Of a stretch of DNA of 21,552 nt, positions 9,451 to 18,713 are shown piece by piece. How positions within the stretch are numbered: the stretch's first letter is position 1; every line of letters begins with the position of its first letter. The notes beneath the pieces were generated by a model. The model was not told the DNA's origin. It saw only the letters and a program-made list of their open reading frames with translations, and did no database searches. Made by a program: the position numbers and the translations under genes. Source of the stretch: a virus; the IMG/VR virus record IMGVR_UViG_3300044911_000948, positions 1 through 21,552 of that record; one strand, written 5' to 3'.

Positions 9451-9724
9451 TGAGATAGCCCTTTCTATCTTTAATCTGTTCGTAAGCTGACAGGAAGCAT
9501 TGTTTCAGATCGACATCTTCAATAGCAGCAACCATAGTGAGGCATACAAGAATATCCCCAAGTCCATCGATAATTGCGTCACGATCTCGTTTGGTAATTG
9601 CATCAGCTAGTTCCCCCATTTCGCTAAAAGCCTTGAGTAACTGCGTCTTGCTATCTGAGTTCTGGATAATGCCTCTGGCTTCCCCCCAACGGACTACCAG
9701 TAGTTCAGTCTGTTCGTAACTCAT
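9419..9724 (-). CDS. MazG-like nucleotide pyrophosphohydrolase
   Basis: The 101-residue all-alpha protein shows the metal-binding pattern of the MazG/dUTPase-2 superfamily: EMGE at 35-38 and DGLGDILVCL at 53-62, with further acidic and Lys residues in the following helix (YEQIKDRKGY). Family members hydrolyse NTPs or dNTPs to the monophosphate and pyrophosphate; in phages they are thought to adjust nucleotide pools or alarmone signalling during infection. The second motif has Asp where many members have Glu, so activity or substrate cannot be assumed. The start overlaps the XRE gene stop by ATGA. Confidence 0.8.
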   Translation of the reverse strand: MSYEQTELLVVRWGEARGIIQNSDSKTQLLKAFSEMGELADAITKRDRDAIIDGLGDILVCLTMVAAIEDVDLKQCFLSAYEQIKDRKGYLNATGVFVKDA

Positions 9725-9912
9725 ATCATTGCCTTAATCTCTTTGATAGGAATATCGAAAGTCTCATGCACTTTAAGAATGAAATCAGCGGTAATCGTGG
9801 TGTGTCCGTTACGAATCTTGCTGATTGCTGGCGCACGAACACCCATAGTCAGGGCCAGTTGTCGGTCATTCTTAATGTCAAATTGCTTCTTTAAAAAGTC
9901 TAGTAGTTTCAT
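9721..9912 (-). CDS. XRE/Cro-type helix-turn-helix regulator
   Basis: The 63-residue protein is a single Cro/C1-type HTH domain: RQLALTMGVRAPAISKIRNG at 17-36 contains both helices and the turn, followed by the usual TITADFILKVHETFDIPI support helices. It has no extra domain for oligomerisation or cleavage, so it resembles Cro or a small autoregulator more than a lambda-type repressor. GAGG five bases before the ATG supports the start. It is the first gene of the downstream half of the minus operon and lies 16 bases from a dyad (9928-9948) that could be its operator. No integrase is in view, so lysogeny is not implied. Confidence 0.85.
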   Translation of the reverse strand: MKLLDFLKKQFDIKNDRQLALTMGVRAPAISKIRNGHTTITADFILKVHETFDIPIKEIKAMI

Positions 9913-12115: not shown

Positions 12116-12298
12116 ATGAAACACTCTAACTCTGGCACAATGATGGTTAAGAAAAAAGACTTACCAAAAGAGCAACCTAAACAAGAAGTACAAAGATTTT
12201 TGCCTAAAACTAGCCCTAGAGGTCAACCCATTGGAAATAGACCCTTCAAAACCCTTGCGTCGAAAGTCCGATTCACGTGGAACGGAAACGACTTATAA
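12116..12298 (+). CDS. Basic hypothetical protein
   Basis: A 60-residue Lys/Pro/Gln-rich product (VKKKDLPKEQPKQEVQRFLP, then SPRGQPIGNRPFKTLASKVR) without predicted fold. No ribosome-binding site precedes the ATG at 12116 or the in-frame ATGs at 12140 and 12143, so the start is uncertain; leaderless initiation from the divergent promoter is possible. Its 3' end shares 68 bases with a Zn-finger ORF in another frame. Its first-in-operon position supports it as real, but only moderately. Confidence 0.5.
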   Translation: MKHSNSGTMMVKKKDLPKEQPKQEVQRFLPKTSPRGQPIGNRPFKTLASKVRFTWNGNDL

Positions 12299-12404
12299 CT
12301 TTGGCACTAAGCTGTGTCCGGCTTGTAAACGGACTAGATCGTTAGCTCAGTTCGTTGATAGCCAGCTATGTAAGATTTGCCAACTGCGTAACGTAAAGGT
12401 ATAG
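12231..12404 (+). CDS. Small zinc-ribbon-like protein with TTG start
   Basis: This 57-codon ORF starts at TTG 12231 with GAGGT about eight bases before it, and reads (M)EIDPSKPLRRKSDSRG, then KLCPACKRTRSLAQF and CKICQLRNVKV. The two CxxC pairs (CPAC, CKIC) about 19 residues apart look like one four-Cys zinc site. It overlaps the previous ORF by 68 bases; no ATG or GTG is in frame between the TTG and the Cys pairs. Such small Cys4 phage proteins are often nucleic-acid binders. The frame is open back to 12120, so a start further upstream cannot be excluded. Confidence 0.6.
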   Translation: MEIDPSKPLRRKSDSRGTETTYNFGTKLCPACKRTRSLAQFVDSQLCKICQLRNVKV

Positions 12405-12428
12405 TTCATAGGGAATGGCTAGAGTAGC

Positions 12429-12506
12429 TCTCGAAAAGACGATTTCTCACCGTCCTGCCTGACCCACCTAATTTGTGAGATTGCCGTGGTTGATTACCAC
12501 ACGAGA
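12429..12506 (+). promoter_or_regulatory. Structured RNA leader of the replication genes
   Basis: The 113 bases before the next gene fold by eye into a three-way junction. P1 pairs TCTCG (12429-12433) with CGAGA (12502-12506), P2 pairs TCTCAC (12445-12450) with GTGAGA (12475-12480), and P3 is GTGGT (12486-12490), loop TGATT, ACCAC (12496-12500). The 3' strand of P1 touches the AAAGG ribosome-binding site of the gene at 12518, so folding could control its translation. No ORF longer than 15 codons fits here. Confidence 0.45.
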
Positions 12507-12517
12507 AAGGCAAAGAT

Positions 12518-13150
12518 ATGCACTACTACCAACACCATATAGGTGATTTCCTGCGTGACACATCGTCACTATCTCAGGCAAATGCCTTTTCATATTTGAA
12601 ACTTCTGTGGATGTATTACGACACAGAGGCTCCACTACCTGACGATCCTGAATACCTAGCTTTTAAGATTGGCGCGTCTATTGAGGACGTTAAGCAAATC
12701 CTCAAAGGCTTTTTTACGTTAGAGAATGGTGTCTGGAATCAGAGAAGATGTGATGCTGAAATAGCAAAATTTCGTCTGAAATCAGATCGTGCTAAGACTG
12801 CGAATCAGATACGTTGGCAATCCAAAATGGATACCGTTTCAGAACCAGATCAGATCGCAACCAATAAACCAATAACCAATAATAAAGAATATATTGATCG
12901 ATTTGATGATTTCTGGAAACACTATCCTCGTAAGGTAGCAAAACCTAATGCACTCAAGGCTTGGTTAAAACTTAAGCCTGATGATGCTTTAACGAAAACA
13001 ATCATCTCAGCAATTTCTAACCAGAATCTTGCGTCTAGGGAACAGCAGTTTATTCCGCATCCTGCGTCATGGCTCAATGCTCAACGTTGGAATGACGAAA
13101 CTACGGTCTCCAATACAACTAATTTTCCTTTTGGAAAGAGAATCTTATGA
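12518..13150 (+). CDS. DUF1376-type replication protein
   Basis: The 210-residue protein begins MHYYQHHIGDFLRDTSSLSQ and continues with FSYLKLLWMYYDTEAPLPDD, the pattern of DUF1376 (YdaU-like) winged-helix domains at the N-terminus of phage replication proteins, ending near residue 85 with NGVWNQRRCDAEIAKF. The C-terminal part has FDDFWKHYPRKVAKPNALKA (about 128-147), the segment shared by many lambda O-like and DnaT-like initiators. It probably binds the phage origin or loads the helicase encoded three genes on. A short spacer with AAAGG precedes the ATG; a structured RNA lies just upstream. It overlaps the primase-finger gene by 4 bp. Confidence 0.82.
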   Translation: MHYYQHHIGDFLRDTSSLSQANAFSYLKLLWMYYDTEAPLPDDPEYLAFKIGASIEDVKQILKGFFTLENGVWNQRRCDAEIAKFRLKSDRAKTANQIRWQSKMDTVSEPDQIATNKPITNNKEYIDRFDDFWKHYPRKVAKPNALKAWLKLKPDDALTKTIISAISNQNLASREQQFIPHPASWLNAQRWNDETTVSNTTNFPFGKRIL

Positions 13151-13563
13151 TTGGTGAATTCTTAAACAAGCTCGAAAAAGTCCAAGGCAAGCGTGGTCAT
13201 TGGGTAGCCTGTTGTCCAGCGCATGAGGATAAGCGTCCTAGCCTAGCGATTACCGAAACTGATGACGGACGCATTTTGCTGAAGTGCTTTGCTGGTTGTA
13301 GCGCATACGAAGTGGTTTCAGCAGTCGGCATGGACTTGACTGATCTGTTTCCTAAAGATCAATCTTTTATGCCTAGCGAAACCAATAAACCAGTCAAGCG
13401 ACCTTTCTATGCCACAGACTTGCTTAAAATAATCCATTTTGAGGCACTTATTACGGGCATAGCGGCGTTTGATATGGCTGAGGGTAGGCAGGTATCAGAC
13501 ACCGATAAAAAACGGCTTAAAACGGCTTTTACGCGAATTAACGAAGCAATAGGATATTTATGA
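13147..13563 (+). CDS. Stand-alone primase zinc-finger protein
   Basis: The 138-residue protein has the CHC2-like zinc finger of phage primases: WVACCPAHEDKRPSLAI at 19-35 (Cys23, His26) and ILLKCFAGCSAYEVVSAVGM with Cys47 and Cys51, followed by DLF near 67. In larger primases this element recognises the priming site. Here there is no TOPRIM or polymerase domain after it, only a helical tail of about 70 residues (LLKIIHFEALITGIAAFDMA). It may act as a separate recognition subunit for the helicase downstream or for the host primase. ATGA overlap joins it to the replication protein and to the next small ORF. Confidence 0.82.
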   Translation: MIGEFLNKLEKVQGKRGHWVACCPAHEDKRPSLAITETDDGRILLKCFAGCSAYEVVSAVGMDLTDLFPKDQSFMPSETNKPVKRPFYATDLLKIIHFEALITGIAAFDMAEGRQVSDTDKKRLKTAFTRINEAIGYL

Positions 13564-13730
13564 CGGAATCGAAGTTAGTTGAGTTAGGCTTTAGCGAAGT
13601 AGTACCGGGGTTTTGGGTTGGTAGCGTTTTTTCACTTAACAGGCTTTACGAGCTAGGGAGACAAGATGAGTCTGGAGCAAAGAGCAGCGGAGTTAGACGA
13701 GGCGAGGAGATTGAGGATAATCAAGTCTGA
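13560..13730 (+). CDS. Small hypothetical ORF between primase finger and helicase
   Basis: A 56-residue ORF starts in an ATGA overlap (13560-13563) with AGGA six to seven bases upstream and reads MTESKLVELGFSEVVPGFWV, then VFSLNRLYELGRQDE. The first 35 residues look coding; the last 21 overlap the start of the helicase gene in another frame and may be a tail read into it. It otherwise fills the only gap (about 100 bases) in this operon. No domain recognised. Confidence 0.6.
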   Translation: MTESKLVELGFSEVVPGFWVGSVFSLNRLYELGRQDESGAKSSGVRRGEEIEDNQV

Positions 13731-14667
13731 CTCGATTGATGTAGAGAAATATCTACATTCAAACGACGTAACGATAAAGGTCAAACAGGCTAGAGACTTC
13801 CTAGATTCAATTAAGGAAAGCTATCTAAACGAGTCTAGAGATACAAAAATCCTACTGCCTTGGAGTAAAACGCACGATTCTTTTGCGTTTAGACCCGGAG
13901 AGGTGACGGTTTATGCTGGTTCCAACGGTGGTGGTAAGTCGCTGTTGACCGGACAAATAGCTCTGCACCTAGTGAAACAGGGTCAGAAGGTTTGCATGGC
14001 GTCGTTTGAGATGAAGCCGCAAAAGACGTTAGAGAGGATGTTGCGACAGTTTGCTGGTGAGTATGTAGATGATCCGTTAGCGTCCGATAGAGAGGCTTAC
14101 ATCACTAAACTTCTAGGAAGATTAGAGAAGTACACGGCTGATTCCTTATACCTTTACGACCAGCAGGGAACGACTAGCCCTGACAAGGTTATTGCTATGG
14201 CGAGATATTGCGCGATGGAACTAGGAGTTCAGCACATTTTTATCGATTCCTTGATGAAATGCGTCAAGAACGAGGATGACTTTAATGGACAAAAGAACTT
14301 TATCGATGAGCTAACGGCATTGGCTAGGGATCATAACGTTCATGTTCACCTAGTTCACCATATTCGGAAACAGGCTTCAGACGAGGTTACGCCGAACAAG
14401 AATGACTTGAAAGGCTCTGGTTCCATTAGCGATCAGGTGGATAACGTCTTTCTTGTGTGGCGCAACAAAAAGAAGGAAAACCAGCGAAACCGTGGCGAGA
14501 CTGTGGACGAATCACAGGGCGATACGTTCTTAATGAACGAGAAGCAGCGTAACGGAGAGGCTCAGGAGTGGTATCAACTCTGGTATCACACAGCAAGCCA
14601 GCAGTTTGTGGAATCGGCAGGATCAAGACCAATGGACTTTGACAACAATGGACGTTTTAGAGACTGA
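13666..14667 (+). CDS. DnaB-family replicative helicase (RecA-fold ATPase)
   Basis: The 333-residue protein carries the C-terminal RecA-like motor of DnaB/gp4 helicases: Walker A GSNGGGKS (85-92), acidic FEMKP (114-118), Walker B IFIDS with Asp194, HLVHHIRK (228-235) and the LKGSGSISDQVDNVFLVWRN segment (248-267) with its GSG loop and arginine finger region. It lacks a primase domain and the N-terminal DnaB domain, so loading and priming must come from other proteins, plausibly the DUF1376 protein and the zinc-finger protein just upstream. GGGAG precedes the ATG. It would unwind the phage replication fork. Confidence 0.9.
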   Translation: MSLEQRAAELDEARRLRIIKSDSIDVEKYLHSNDVTIKVKQARDFLDSIKESYLNESRDTKILLPWSKTHDSFAFRPGEVTVYAGSNGGGKSLLTGQIALHLVKQGQKVCMASFEMKPQKTLERMLRQFAGEYVDDPLASDREAYITKLLGRLEKYTADSLYLYDQQGTTSPDKVIAMARYCAMELGVQHIFIDSLMKCVKNEDDFNGQKNFIDELTALARDHNVHVHLVHHIRKQASDEVTPNKNDLKGSGSISDQVDNVFLVWRNKKKENQRNRGETVDESQGDTFLMNEKQRNGEAQEWYQLWYHTASQQFVESAGSRPMDFDNNGRFRD

Positions 14668-16709: not shown

Positions 16710-17001
16710 GGCTTGGCAGCGTTCTGAGGGTAAGAACAAGAAGGGCGGTCTTAACGAAAAAGGTCGCAAGTCTTACGAAGCTGCTAATCCCGGTTCTAAC
16801 CTAAAGGCTCCTGTGAAGTCGGGGGATAATCCTCGTCGAGCCAGTTTCCTAGCCCGTATGGGCAATATGCCGGGGCCAGAACGCAAGCCTAATGGTGAGC
16901 CTACTCGGTTACTCCTGAGCCTAAAGGCATGGGGAGCCAGTTCTAAGGCTGATGCTAAGGCAAAGGCTAAAGCCATTTCATCGCGAAATAAAAATAAGTA
17001 A
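16696..17001 (+). CDS. Basic protein, DUF6321-like
   Basis: From the ATG at 16696 (GAAGGG six bases upstream) the 101-residue protein reads GGLNEKGRKSYEAANPGSNL, then KAPVKSGDNPRRASFLARMG and a Lys/Ala tail. The GGL..KGRKSY....GSNLKAPV ... RR.SF.ARM pattern matches the DUF6321 domain of phages. It is strongly basic and lacks enzyme motifs. A longer frame from 16657 only reads into the previous gene. The stop overlaps the acetyltransferase ATG by one base (TAATG). Confidence 0.78.
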   Translation: MAKTEAWQRSEGKNKKGGLNEKGRKSYEAANPGSNLKAPVKSGDNPRRASFLARMGNMPGPERKPNGEPTRLLLSLKAWGASSKADAKAKAKAISSRNKNK

Positions 17002-17510
17002 TGCGGTACACCTATGGTCTGGAGAACATCCGAGTCCGAGATTGGGGAGAGGGTGCAGACGTAAGGATAGGGTCATTTTGCTCGATTGGCGATAACGTCG
17101 AGATATTTATCGGTGGAAACCACAGGGTAGACTGGATAACGACTTACCCTTTCGGGCATATCCATGAAGAAGAATTTCCGCATCATGGTCAAGGACATCC
17201 AGCTACTAAGGGCGATGTTGTTATCGGGAATGATGTCTGGCTAGGATCGGGCTGCACGATTATGTCAGGGGTAACGATAGGCGATGGCGCTGTTGTTGCT
17301 GCGAAATCCGTCGTAACGAAAGATGTTCCTCCTTATGCAATAGTCGGTGGGAATCCGGCTAAGGTTATCAAGCTCCGGTTTACGTTGAGCCAGATAGAAA
17401 GGCTCCTAAAGAAACCTTGGTGGGAGCTACCAGACGAGCGTATACGCGATTTAATTCCGTTACTGTGTTCAGACAAGGTGGAGGAGCTAATTGCAGCCTG
17501 TAACGCTTAA
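17001..17510 (+). CDS. CatB-like hexapeptide acetyltransferase
   Basis: The 169-residue protein is a left-handed beta-helix acetyltransferase of the xenobiotic (CatB/XAT) type. Hexapeptide turns run through about 20-36 and 72-105 (VVIGNDVWLGSGCTIMSGVT), GGNHRVDWITTYPF at 38-51 holds the likely catalytic His41, and YAIVGGNPAKVIKLRF (112-127) is the conserved end of the helix. It transfers an acetyl group from acetyl-CoA to a hydroxyl, in phages and surface loci usually on a sugar. Together with the methyl- and glycosyltransferase genes that follow it suggests modification of a host or virion glycan rather than drug resistance. Confidence 0.88.
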   Translation: MRYTYGLENIRVRDWGEGADVRIGSFCSIGDNVEIFIGGNHRVDWITTYPFGHIHEEEFPHHGQGHPATKGDVVIGNDVWLGSGCTIMSGVTIGDGAVVAAKSVVTKDVPPYAIVGGNPAKVIKLRFTLSQIERLLKKPWWELPDERIRDLIPLLCSDKVEELIAACNA

Positions 17511-18018
17511 TTTAGGCTCTGGTAAGGATTGGCGAGAGGATTGCGTCAATGCCGATATTCAGCAGAGGACTAACCCGGATTGGTGGGTAGATATTTCTAA
17601 GGTGCATTTCGGGGCTAAGATTGATACCCGATGGGGATCGATGACGATACAGCCTGAGATGTTCGAGAAGATCATTGCTAACGATGTCTTAGAGCATATC
17701 CCTGACTTAGTTTCTGCGATGAAAAACTGCTATGACTTACTGAAGTCTGGTGGTGAGTTTCATATTAGCGTACCTTATGACCTGAGTTTAGGGGCATGGC
17801 AAGACCCGACTCATGTACGAGCGTTTAACGAGAATAGCTGGTTGTACTACACCGATTGGGCTTGGTATCTAGGTTGGGAAAAAGGATTTAAGCTCAAGGA
17901 ATTGGCGTTTGACCTGTCAGAACTAGGTCAGAAGTTAATAACTAGACAACCAGACGATGAAGTAATTAGGACTCCGAGGGCTGTAGATAGCATGAGAGTC
18001 GTTTTATGCAAGCCATAG
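17491..18018 (+). CDS. SAM-dependent methyltransferase, TTG start
   Basis: The 175-residue protein has class I methyltransferase motifs: TLNLGSGKDW (5-14) for SAM binding, NADI (20-23) for the ribose-contacting acid, ANDVLEHIPD (63-72) and LLKSGGEFHISVPY (83-96). The C-terminal Trp/Tyr-rich part (NSWLYYTDWAWYLGWEKG) probably makes the substrate site. TTG at 17491 is the start, since GGAGG at 17480-17484 sits six bases before it and no better codon is in frame before the SAM motif. It overlaps the acetyltransferase by 20 bp and the glycosyltransferase by 13 bp. Small-molecule or glycan methylation is more likely than DNA methylation: no DPPY/PC motif is present. Confidence 0.85.
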   Translation: MQPVTLNLGSGKDWREDCVNADIQQRTNPDWWVDISKVHFGAKIDTRWGSMTIQPEMFEKIIANDVLEHIPDLVSAMKNCYDLLKSGGEFHISVPYDLSLGAWQDPTHVRAFNENSWLYYTDWAWYLGWEKGFKLKELAFDLSELGQKLITRQPDDEVIRTPRAVDSMRVVLCKP

Positions 18019-18713
18019 TCATTTGTCATGTAAGCAATCCGGGCATCTCGGTATTGCTGGAGAGCATCAAGGTATATGCACCTACCACCCCGATTTACGT
18101 TTATAGCGTTGACATTGCCAGAGGAGAGAGATTCCGACGAATCTTGCCCAATGTTATCGTCCGATCCAATACTGGTAGAAATTTTGGAGACTCATATAAT
18201 GAAGCCATCAGCGATGTTTTTGGAAGGGTCGCAGTCGATTCATTGATTGTTGCTAACGATGATGTCGTTCTGAATCCGCAAACAATCGAGTTATTGGGTG
18301 AGGATAAACGGATTCTTGAGGAAAACGGACAGAAGATAGGCTTCTTAGGTGCAAGAAGCGACTACGTGTTGCCAGACCAGAACATTAGGTTTCCGGTACA
18401 TGACGATAGGCAGCAAGGATTGTATTGGGCTAGTGAGGGTCAGATCAAGGAAACTCAGGTCATAGCACCAATATTTGCCACCATAACGAGAGAGGCTTGG
18501 AAGGTAGCCAAGTTTCCTAGCACGAATTGGTATTCAGATAATATAATCTGCCATGACCTGCAAGAAGCGGGTTACAGGCATTTCGTAAGCAGGGCGTATG
18601 TTCATCATGCTGGATCACAGACAGTAGGGATGGACTACAAGAAATGCCATGAGGAGCCGAGAGATTGGATTAAGGCTCACAGACCGGATGTGTACGAGGC
18701 TATCTATGGCTGA
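18006..18713 (+). CDS. Glycosyltransferase-like protein (GT-A fold)
   Basis: The 235-residue protein starts with a Rossmann-like strand (AIVICHVSNPGISVLLESIK), has RSNTGRNFGDSYNEAI (53-68) and IVANDDVVLNP (81-91), where the Asp pair fits the metal/nucleotide-sugar site of GT-A enzymes, then a C-terminal acceptor region with His and Trp (ICHDLQEAGYRHFV, AYVHHAGSQT). It would transfer a sugar from a nucleotide donor. The missing classical DxD is replaced by NDD. It is coupled to the methyltransferase before it and to the polyvalent-domain gene after it by 13- and 8-bp overlaps. Confidence 0.82.
   Translation: MQAIVICHVSNPGISVLLESIKVYAPTTPIYVYSVDIARGERFRRILPNVIVRSNTGRNFGDSYNEAISDVFGRVAVDSLIVANDDVVLNPQTIELLGEDKRILEENGQKIGFLGARSDYVLPDQNIRFPVHDDRQQGLYWASEGQIKETQVIAPIFATITREAWKVAKFPSTNWYSDNIICHDLQEAGYRHFVSRAYVHHAGSQTVGMDYKKCHEEPRDWIKAHRPDVYEAIYG

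Follow-up and report, generated by a model that had tools for sequence, protein, structure and literature searches.

The leader of the replication operon in a 21.5-kb virus record (21,552 nucleotides, analysed in full and hereafter called the window) contains, as far as comparison with relatives can tell, a real structured RNA, whose conserved three-way junction lies at 12411-12465, further upstream than the fold that was first, and wrongly, drawn for it. The core of this RNA is that of a known Rfam family, int-alpA (RF02996), and its variable loop is complementary to two sites near the start codon of the downstream gene, which points to antisense control. We favour, with some reservation, the reading that the element is a C4/P4-CI-like antisense RNA, int-alpA in type, and that the replication gene is repressed at the level of translation when this loop (L3) pairs at the ribosome-binding site.

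The leader and its conserved junction

The rightward genes from 12518 onwards form the replication operon. It opens with a gene for a primosomal or replication-initiation protein matching the DUF1376 family (12518..13150, + strand, as for all features below unless stated otherwise), continues with a gene that has a DNA primase family match (13147..13563) and whose product is probably a protein with a CHC2 zinc finger, and includes a gene matching the DnaB-like replicative helicases (13666..14667). The Zn_ribbon_DnaG model matched one of the 37 window proteins, in a listing that leaves its bearer unnamed. As the first-pass annotation had stated, no likely gene fills the space in front of the operon: the upstream frame stops at 12404, the replication gene starts at 12518, and the sole frame listed on the opposite strand of this gap encodes 55 aa from a GTG start. 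The upstream frame (12231-12404) is small, has paired cysteines (CPAC...CKIC) and belongs to phrog_38162, of unknown function; its end carries the leader promoter, and its stop codon overlaps the TATAGT hexamer. Elsewhere in this phage fragment, in which no integrase was recognised, a 63-aa frame on the - strand (9721-9912) is probably the helix-turn-helix protein of the window, and frames between the replication genes and the terminase (17001-18713) probably correspond to the hexapeptide-transferase and methyltransferase matches; a third frame in this interval is unassigned to a family.

The junction is closed by stem P1, in which GGG (12411-12413) pairs with CCC (12463-12465) and GGC (12417-12419) with GCC (12457-12459), as seen in the minimum-energy fold, in the alignment to RF02996 and in covariation. 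Hairpin P2 (GAG-UAGCU-CUC, 12422..12432, paired at 12422-12424/12430-12432) appears in the minimum-energy fold and covaries, and is followed by an unpaired GAAAA linker (12433..12437) that is among the most conserved words of the motif. Hairpin P3 (12438..12454), in which GACG (12438-12441) pairs with CGUC (12451-12454), is likewise backed by covariation and presents the 9-nt loop L3 (AUUUCUCAC, 12442..12450), the proposed antisense sequence, which is singled out by downstream complementarity and covariation. Further downstream, the minimum-energy fold contains stem P4 (12481..12513; UUGCC 12481-12485 with GGCAA 12509-12513), enclosing both hairpin P5 (GUGGU/ACCAC, 12486..12500) and the second of the sites complementary to L3. 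For 12411-12520 this fold comprises P1, P2 and P3, then P4 and P5, at -23.4 kcal/mol. Its energy is unremarkable (z -0.15; 92/200 shuffles at least as good), and that of the originally drawn interval 12429-12506 is equally ordinary (z -1.35; 22/200 shuffles at least as good), so that the evidence for the structure is comparative and not energetic.

The first-pass annotation had omitted the conserved 5' part of the element (12411-12428) and proposed a junction of three stems (5, 6 and 5 bp) at 12429-12506, possibly responsive to a ligand or a protein. All three stems can be drawn and they nest, with a folding energy of -15.7 kcal/mol, but the closing stem is broken in relatives. When the helices were checked one by one in the window and six close relatives, amounting to six distinct rows, the 5-bp closing helix (12429-12433/12502-12506) was paired in 66.7% of cells, with one pair formed in 1/6 rows, and it therefore looks coincidental; the ribosome-binding site, where this stem had been said to end, is instead overlapped by the second L3 complement (12503-12508). 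No variation is seen in the close rows for the 6-bp helix (12445-12450/12475-12480), which covaries in wider relatives and is actually a pseudoknot between L3 and the first complementary site. The remaining 5-bp hairpin (12486-12490/12496-12500) is P5, which shows two-sided changes at 2/5 pairs and one unpaired cell in the six distinct rows; it is confined to the subgroup of the window (6/31 rows of a viewing alignment that includes one row with wrong coordinates, L193), and P4 is invariant in the six rows and hence uninformative there. Covariation thus removes one of the three stems, supports the other two and adds a different three-way junction. Furthermore, the 12429-12506 fold dismantles P2, a conserved helix, and its stability falls 7.7 kcal/mol short of that of the conserved fold when both are evaluated over the same 110 nt. 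We give next to no credence to this junction as a ligand- or protein-responsive element, an idea that is unsupported, the most telling feature of the leader being the variable loop with its two complements.

A protein search returned 334 relatives, and among the leaders of the best 80 of these 334, a strict expression located the motif within 190 nt upstream in 51/78 that had enough sequence; five further leaders (L028, L060, L064, L067 and L077) carry variants that this expression missed and that were recognised by eye. Base pairing was assessed in 248 distinct cores picked by conserved words alone, with the tested pairs not required and related cores counted at full weight. The first extension pair of P1 is standard in 192/248 cores versus 101.5 expected, the second and third pairs of P2 in 201/247 and 177/238 (149.4 and 94.8 expected), and the second and third pairs of P3 in 196 and 209 of the 248 (97.9 and 110.9 expected). 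For these inner pairs of P2 and P3, and likewise for the first extension pair of P1, the counts are far above column expectation and many pair types occur; at the outer edge of what was tested (P2 fourth, P3 fifth, P1 fourth) the excess is weak or absent, the fourth extension pair of P1 being standard in 98 of the 248 cores versus 94.2 expected. A separate alignment of 30 hand-chosen leaders, mostly with loops of 9-10 nt and a short P2, gave a whole-structure covariation score of 0.285, compared with 0.110 for shuffled alignments (reached by 0/500) and at most 0.084 for slid ones, and the number of pairs with two-sided changes was matched by 5/500 shuffles; one row of this alignment (L156) is wrong (16 nt), and its cells were counted as gaps. 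In the same 30 leaders, 98.2% of P3 cells are paired and two P3 pairs show two-sided changes.

Some members of the same DUF1376 family (L008, L009, L010, L023, L033 and perhaps L039) are preceded by a different leader RNA in place of the element. It has a 5' hairpin, whose loop UUGGNN is complementary to a later word, followed by a branched stem that ends in a T5-T7 run before the start codon. Rfam gave no match at cut-off for it in L008, L010, L023, L033 and L039, and no convincing weak match in L023 either.

Two downstream complements of the junction loop

In the window, site 1 (GUGAGA, 12475..12480) pairs with L3 positions 12445-12450 to form the pseudoknot, with a duplex energy of -7.4 kcal/mol, and site 2 (GAGAAA, 12503-12508) pairs with L3 positions 12443-12448 at -6.4 kcal/mol. 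Site 2 is contained in the likely ribosome-binding site GAGAAAGG (12503..12510), whose end is separated from the AUG by 7 nt. The word AGAAAGG would pair with the 16S tail of many betaproteobacteria. Across the 30 leaders of the covariation alignment, 88.7% of cells in the L3:site 1 helix are paired and two-sided changes occur at 5/7 pairs, with rows L095, L110, L151, L058, L051, L107 and L189 looking misaligned at site 1 and mostly counting against the helix or as gaps.

This arrangement was quantified in a wider set of instances, for which 308 raw matches in viral and bacterial contigs were reduced to 176 distinct ones past a stem filter, 172 with full flanks and finally 132 that are non-redundant. 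As a measure we took the longest run complementary to L3 (the loop plus one stem base on each side) within 90 nt downstream, the second site being determined after masking. The best site has a mean length of 6.05 and the second of 4.87 (n=132), compared with 4.39 and 3.69 when each instance is given the loop of another (dealt loops; 20 deals, with maxima of 4.55 and 3.79); shuffled loops give 4.39 and 3.72. Within 60 nt upstream, complementarity to L3 shows no excess (3.86 vs 3.92 for dealt loops; n=132). Two downstream sites of at least 5 bases are found in 80/128 instances with a start codon (dealt loops: mean 12.7, maximum 18) and are not reached in 48/128. The first site mostly starts 10-19 nt past P1, and the second, at 5 bases or longer, ends 0-14 nt before the start codon in 61/128 instances (dealt loops: mean 5.1, maximum 10), start codons having been assigned by a rule that takes the longest frame of 35 codons or more and favours ATG, and not from annotation. 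When 4 bases are allowed for the second site, it ends within these 0-14 nt in 88/116 instances, at a median of 7. A search for orphan copies that might reflect action in trans left 8/172 instances in which no match within 60 nt is longer than chance would give.

As L3, site 1 and site 2 amount to one short word, present in inverted and direct orientation ahead of a replication gene, they could in principle be DNA sites, namely iterons or operators for an initiator or a repressor, and not RNA pairing partners. We consider this very improbable: P1, P2 and P3 covary around the kept GAAAA linker, the same arrangement also lies ahead of some integrase, HNH endonuclease and Rha genes, and the window holds no further L3 target, the 8-base complement of L3 12443-12450 occurring nowhere else in it.

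Comparison of close relatives shows how the RNA pairing partners change. L043 and L066 have the L3 type of the window, and L035, L037 and L038 have the AUUCGUUAC type. Between the two groups, the replication proteins are near-identical over the ~130 N-terminal residues compared and long DNA alignments reach 77-85% identity, yet L3 and its two sites differ as a set. Conversely, L192 and L035 share 97.4% identity over 1014 nt including the leader, but L192 has another initiator gene. The AUUCGUUAC loop occurs in 14/172 instances, ahead of more than one kind of gene. Such a concerted change of loop and sites is, at the level of sequence, the behaviour of an exchangeable specificity determinant.

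The likely ends of the transcript were considered in the window and in the 132 instances. A sigma70-like promoter precedes the element (12377..12405; TTGCCA 12377-12382, 17 nt, TATAGT 12400-12405) with 10/12 consensus matches, a hit that taken alone is not significant (1 found vs 1.2 expected), and a start 6-8 nt past TATAGT would fall on the 5' strand of P1. TATAAT-like hexamers (at least 5/6) start 13-19 nt before the GGC of the core in 59/132 instances, compared with 4-10/132 in five other stretches; they abut P1, so that transcription is expected to start on P1 in many elements. Downstream of the junction, TTTT occurs no more than 25 nt after P1 in 52/132 instances, compared with 10/132 further downstream and 21/132 upstream, which is suggestive of some transcripts stopping short of site 1. 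In the window itself, no intrinsic terminator follows P1 (0 found vs 0.5 expected), and its short RNA would therefore need processing or weak termination.

A U-run after P1 in part of the set, for example in GAAAC...GTTTCTTTT leaders, would also suit a transcription attenuator, in which the junction and the U-tract form a terminator whose use or read-through depends on L3:site 1 pairing; the CI RNA of satellite P4 is described in PMC4825925 as causing premature termination. This explanation appears improbable to us, since TTTT is absent from the 25 nt after P1 in 80/132 instances, the window itself lacks a terminator-like site and the position of site 2 at the ribosome-binding site would be left unexplained.

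The main rival to antisense repression is a pure cis switch, in which the leader affects its own mRNA alone, L3 pairs with site 1 (leaving the ribosome-binding site open) or with site 2 (closing it) and a ligand, a protein, temperature or the ribosome shifts the balance. Both pairings are possible in one molecule and their energies in the window are similar, the spacing of the first site from P1 fits, P4-like stems tend to enclose site 2 (the stems around it have a mean length of 4.52 vs 3.86 when shuffled; n=112), and purely cis-acting regulation would leave the same sequence traces. However, L3 is the variable part of the RNA, whereas a ligand pocket is expected to be conserved, and the joint replacement of L3, site 1 and site 2 between relatives, which suits an exchange of specificity, speaks against it as well, as do the T-runs between P1 and site 1. 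We therefore regard a cis switch as possible but rather unlikely, and retain antisense repression as the preferred reading.

Known phage antisense RNAs and a candidate mechanism

At the curated cut-off, Rfam gave no match on the window. RF02996 scored 26.7 bits there (model positions 6-52 of 71) without reaching its cut-off of 35.8, and some homologous leaders lie above it: 2/16 leader loci (L020 at 38.8 and L025 at 36.1 bits), 4/20 records of the window's kind (L025, L027, L058 and L070) and 10/13 other loci picked for testing. In a genome search with RF02996, the window was again without a match, and weak matches (E up to 1, all below the cut-off) came from 3/14 control genomes. The window is bridged to the family by those relatives whose leaders, at an equivalent gene position, score above the threshold, and on this ground we treat its element as a homologue. 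The int-alpA RNAs share the core of P1, UA, P2, GAAAA, P3 with a large loop, CU and the 3' strand of P1. Thus, the earlier proposal of a new cis-regulatory RNA holds in so far as a structured RNA probably controls the start of the replication operon, while a new kind of RNA is unsupported, the core being of the int-alpA type.

The present leader nevertheless differs from the family as modelled. The Rfam model, as aligned, contains no L3 pairing and ends before the second target, whereas the leader has both. Of the int and alpA neighbours that the family name leads one to expect, the integrase was sought here and not seen: DUF1376 lies downstream, and 0/20 records of the window's kind (including the window; 18-41 kb and possibly incomplete) match the Phage_integrase or Resolvase models, so that the role of the RNA may lie in superinfection or copy control and not in lysogeny. 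The sequence of Stutzerimonas stutzeri KOS6 has an int-alpA RNA (L227:2008-2072) ~0.8 kb away from a second Rfam motif, a DUF3800-VII RNA (L227:2879-2963).

In layout, the element resembles the C4 RNA of phages P1 and P7 and the CI RNA of satellite P4 (RF01695), which, according to PMC5320573, are three-way-junction antisense RNAs in the leader of the operon that they control, with short loop complements and two target copies, of which one lies where the controlled gene begins; here too, a loop is complementary to a target that lies at the ribosome-binding site of a phage gene downstream. The same source describes a C4 b' that partly occludes ribosome-binding sites, an a' that confers specificity and a precursor that is trimmed by RNase P. 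For P4, PMC4825925 describes replication-gene expression as prevented by pairing of CI RNA with seqA and seqC, leading to termination. There are differences in arrangement. C4 targets flank the RNA on both sides, whereas both targets of our element lie downstream; C4 uses two complements (a' and b'), whereas the single loop L3 serves both sites; and in phage P1, promoters and a1/b1 precede c4, whereas the promoter here abuts the RNA. RF01695 itself gave no match at cut-off in the window, none at E up to 10 in 12380-12540, and reached its cut-off in 0/29 loci scanned. The P4 element, used as a positive control, was recognised as RF01695 at 74.9 bits, with the a1/b1 target model upstream of it 2.6 bits under the cut-off of that family. 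In the phage P1 record, c4 is annotated together with putative targets on its upstream side and two targets on its downstream side, of which the last immediately precedes icd. We do not claim C4 family membership for the leader element. The IsrK/seqA-type leaders (RF01394) are alike in being, according to PMC4825925, phage leader RNAs with alternative structures that control a downstream phage gene; their fold differs from that of the present leader, and RF01394 gave no match at cut-off in 29 loci. One locus (L242) has an isrJ match elsewhere.

Because the layout is like that of C4 and CI but C4 membership failed, we propose that antisense repression takes place at site 2 and that site 1 is a partner of the same loop in cis. 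Transcription would probably start at the 5' strand of P1, and the first ~55-65 nt would fold into the P1/P2/P3 junction that presents L3, the complement of two copies of one short target: site 1, just past the junction, and site 2, which overlaps the ribosome-binding site. Once L3 is paired with site 2, ribosomes would be blocked and less primosomal protein made, and coupling would hold down the downstream primase-like and helicase genes as well. A short RNA ending before site 1 would leave its L3 free to act in trans on other transcripts. On a read-through mRNA, site 1 may instead capture the mRNA's own L3 in cis as a pseudoknot, acting as a self-titrating decoy that leaves site 2 to the short RNAs.

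If this mechanism is correct, the int-alpA family gains a mechanism and a role in many phages, and its targets could be deduced from sequence by comparing the P3 loop with the region around the start of the gene that follows. Control by RNA as in P1 and P4 would extend to phages without a visible integrase, and exchangeable RNA specificity, hence which phages exclude each other, would become predictable. More tentatively, and with somewhat less than even confidence, we suggest that the int-alpA-type RNAs make up a second class of antisense repressors in phages, one that was built independently and whose specificity is exchangeable. Each would carry its own two-copy target, with one copy a cis decoy that neutralises the mRNA's own loop and the other at the ribosome-binding site. 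They would form an RNA-only superinfection-exclusion or copy-control system in prophages as well as in phages that lack an integrase, in which loop types like AUUCGUUAC, common to phages with different initiators, would define immunity groups. A literature search that did not include the founding paper of int-alpA found no mention of the double target, the start-codon placement, the loop covariation or the exchange between relatives; int-alpA was named only in a table of predicted RNAs and in one sentence, and RF02996 went unnamed. Weinberg et al. 2017 is reportedly the source of int-alpA and may already have noted the loop complementarity. Searches for DUF1376 together with phage and small RNA found nothing, and neither did most searches for C4 and superinfection immunity.

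Distribution and downstream genes

Searches of named phages gave little. A DNA search with the window leader found no match at 1e-5, one with the element of L161 found only short matches (E 0.9-3, in 20 records), and the regular expression did not find the element in six examined of 184 records of named phages with a related DUF1376 protein, one of which (L328) begins too near the record end to judge. Pattern scans located at least 120 stretches in viral contigs and at least 119 in bacterial and archaeal genomes, with titles that name many phyla, and some of these stretches are chance matches.

Downstream frames were found for 128 instances, and 119 were aligned, namely 118 together with that of the window; ten truncated or very short frames were dropped (L117, L123, L125, L130, L144, L217, L223, L265, L267 and L309). 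Among the 119, 42 genes encode DUF1376 proteins, 18 belong to one replication O-like family and 9 to a DnaD-like loader family, and there are also 6 phage integrase, 6 HNH_3 and 2 Rha genes. As 20/119 came from the DUF1376 search itself, at least 22/99 of the remaining genes are DUF1376.

In E. coli, 50/5426 genomes contain a stretch similar to part of the leader of L281. Two E. coli prophages were examined (L329:5001-5094 and L330:3001-3094), and in each the core sits between the genes for lysis and those for packaging. In the prophage of strain M9 the element lies directly before a small DUF551 gene and in the other prophage downstream of a Rha gene, which indicates that the target of the element is not always a replication gene.
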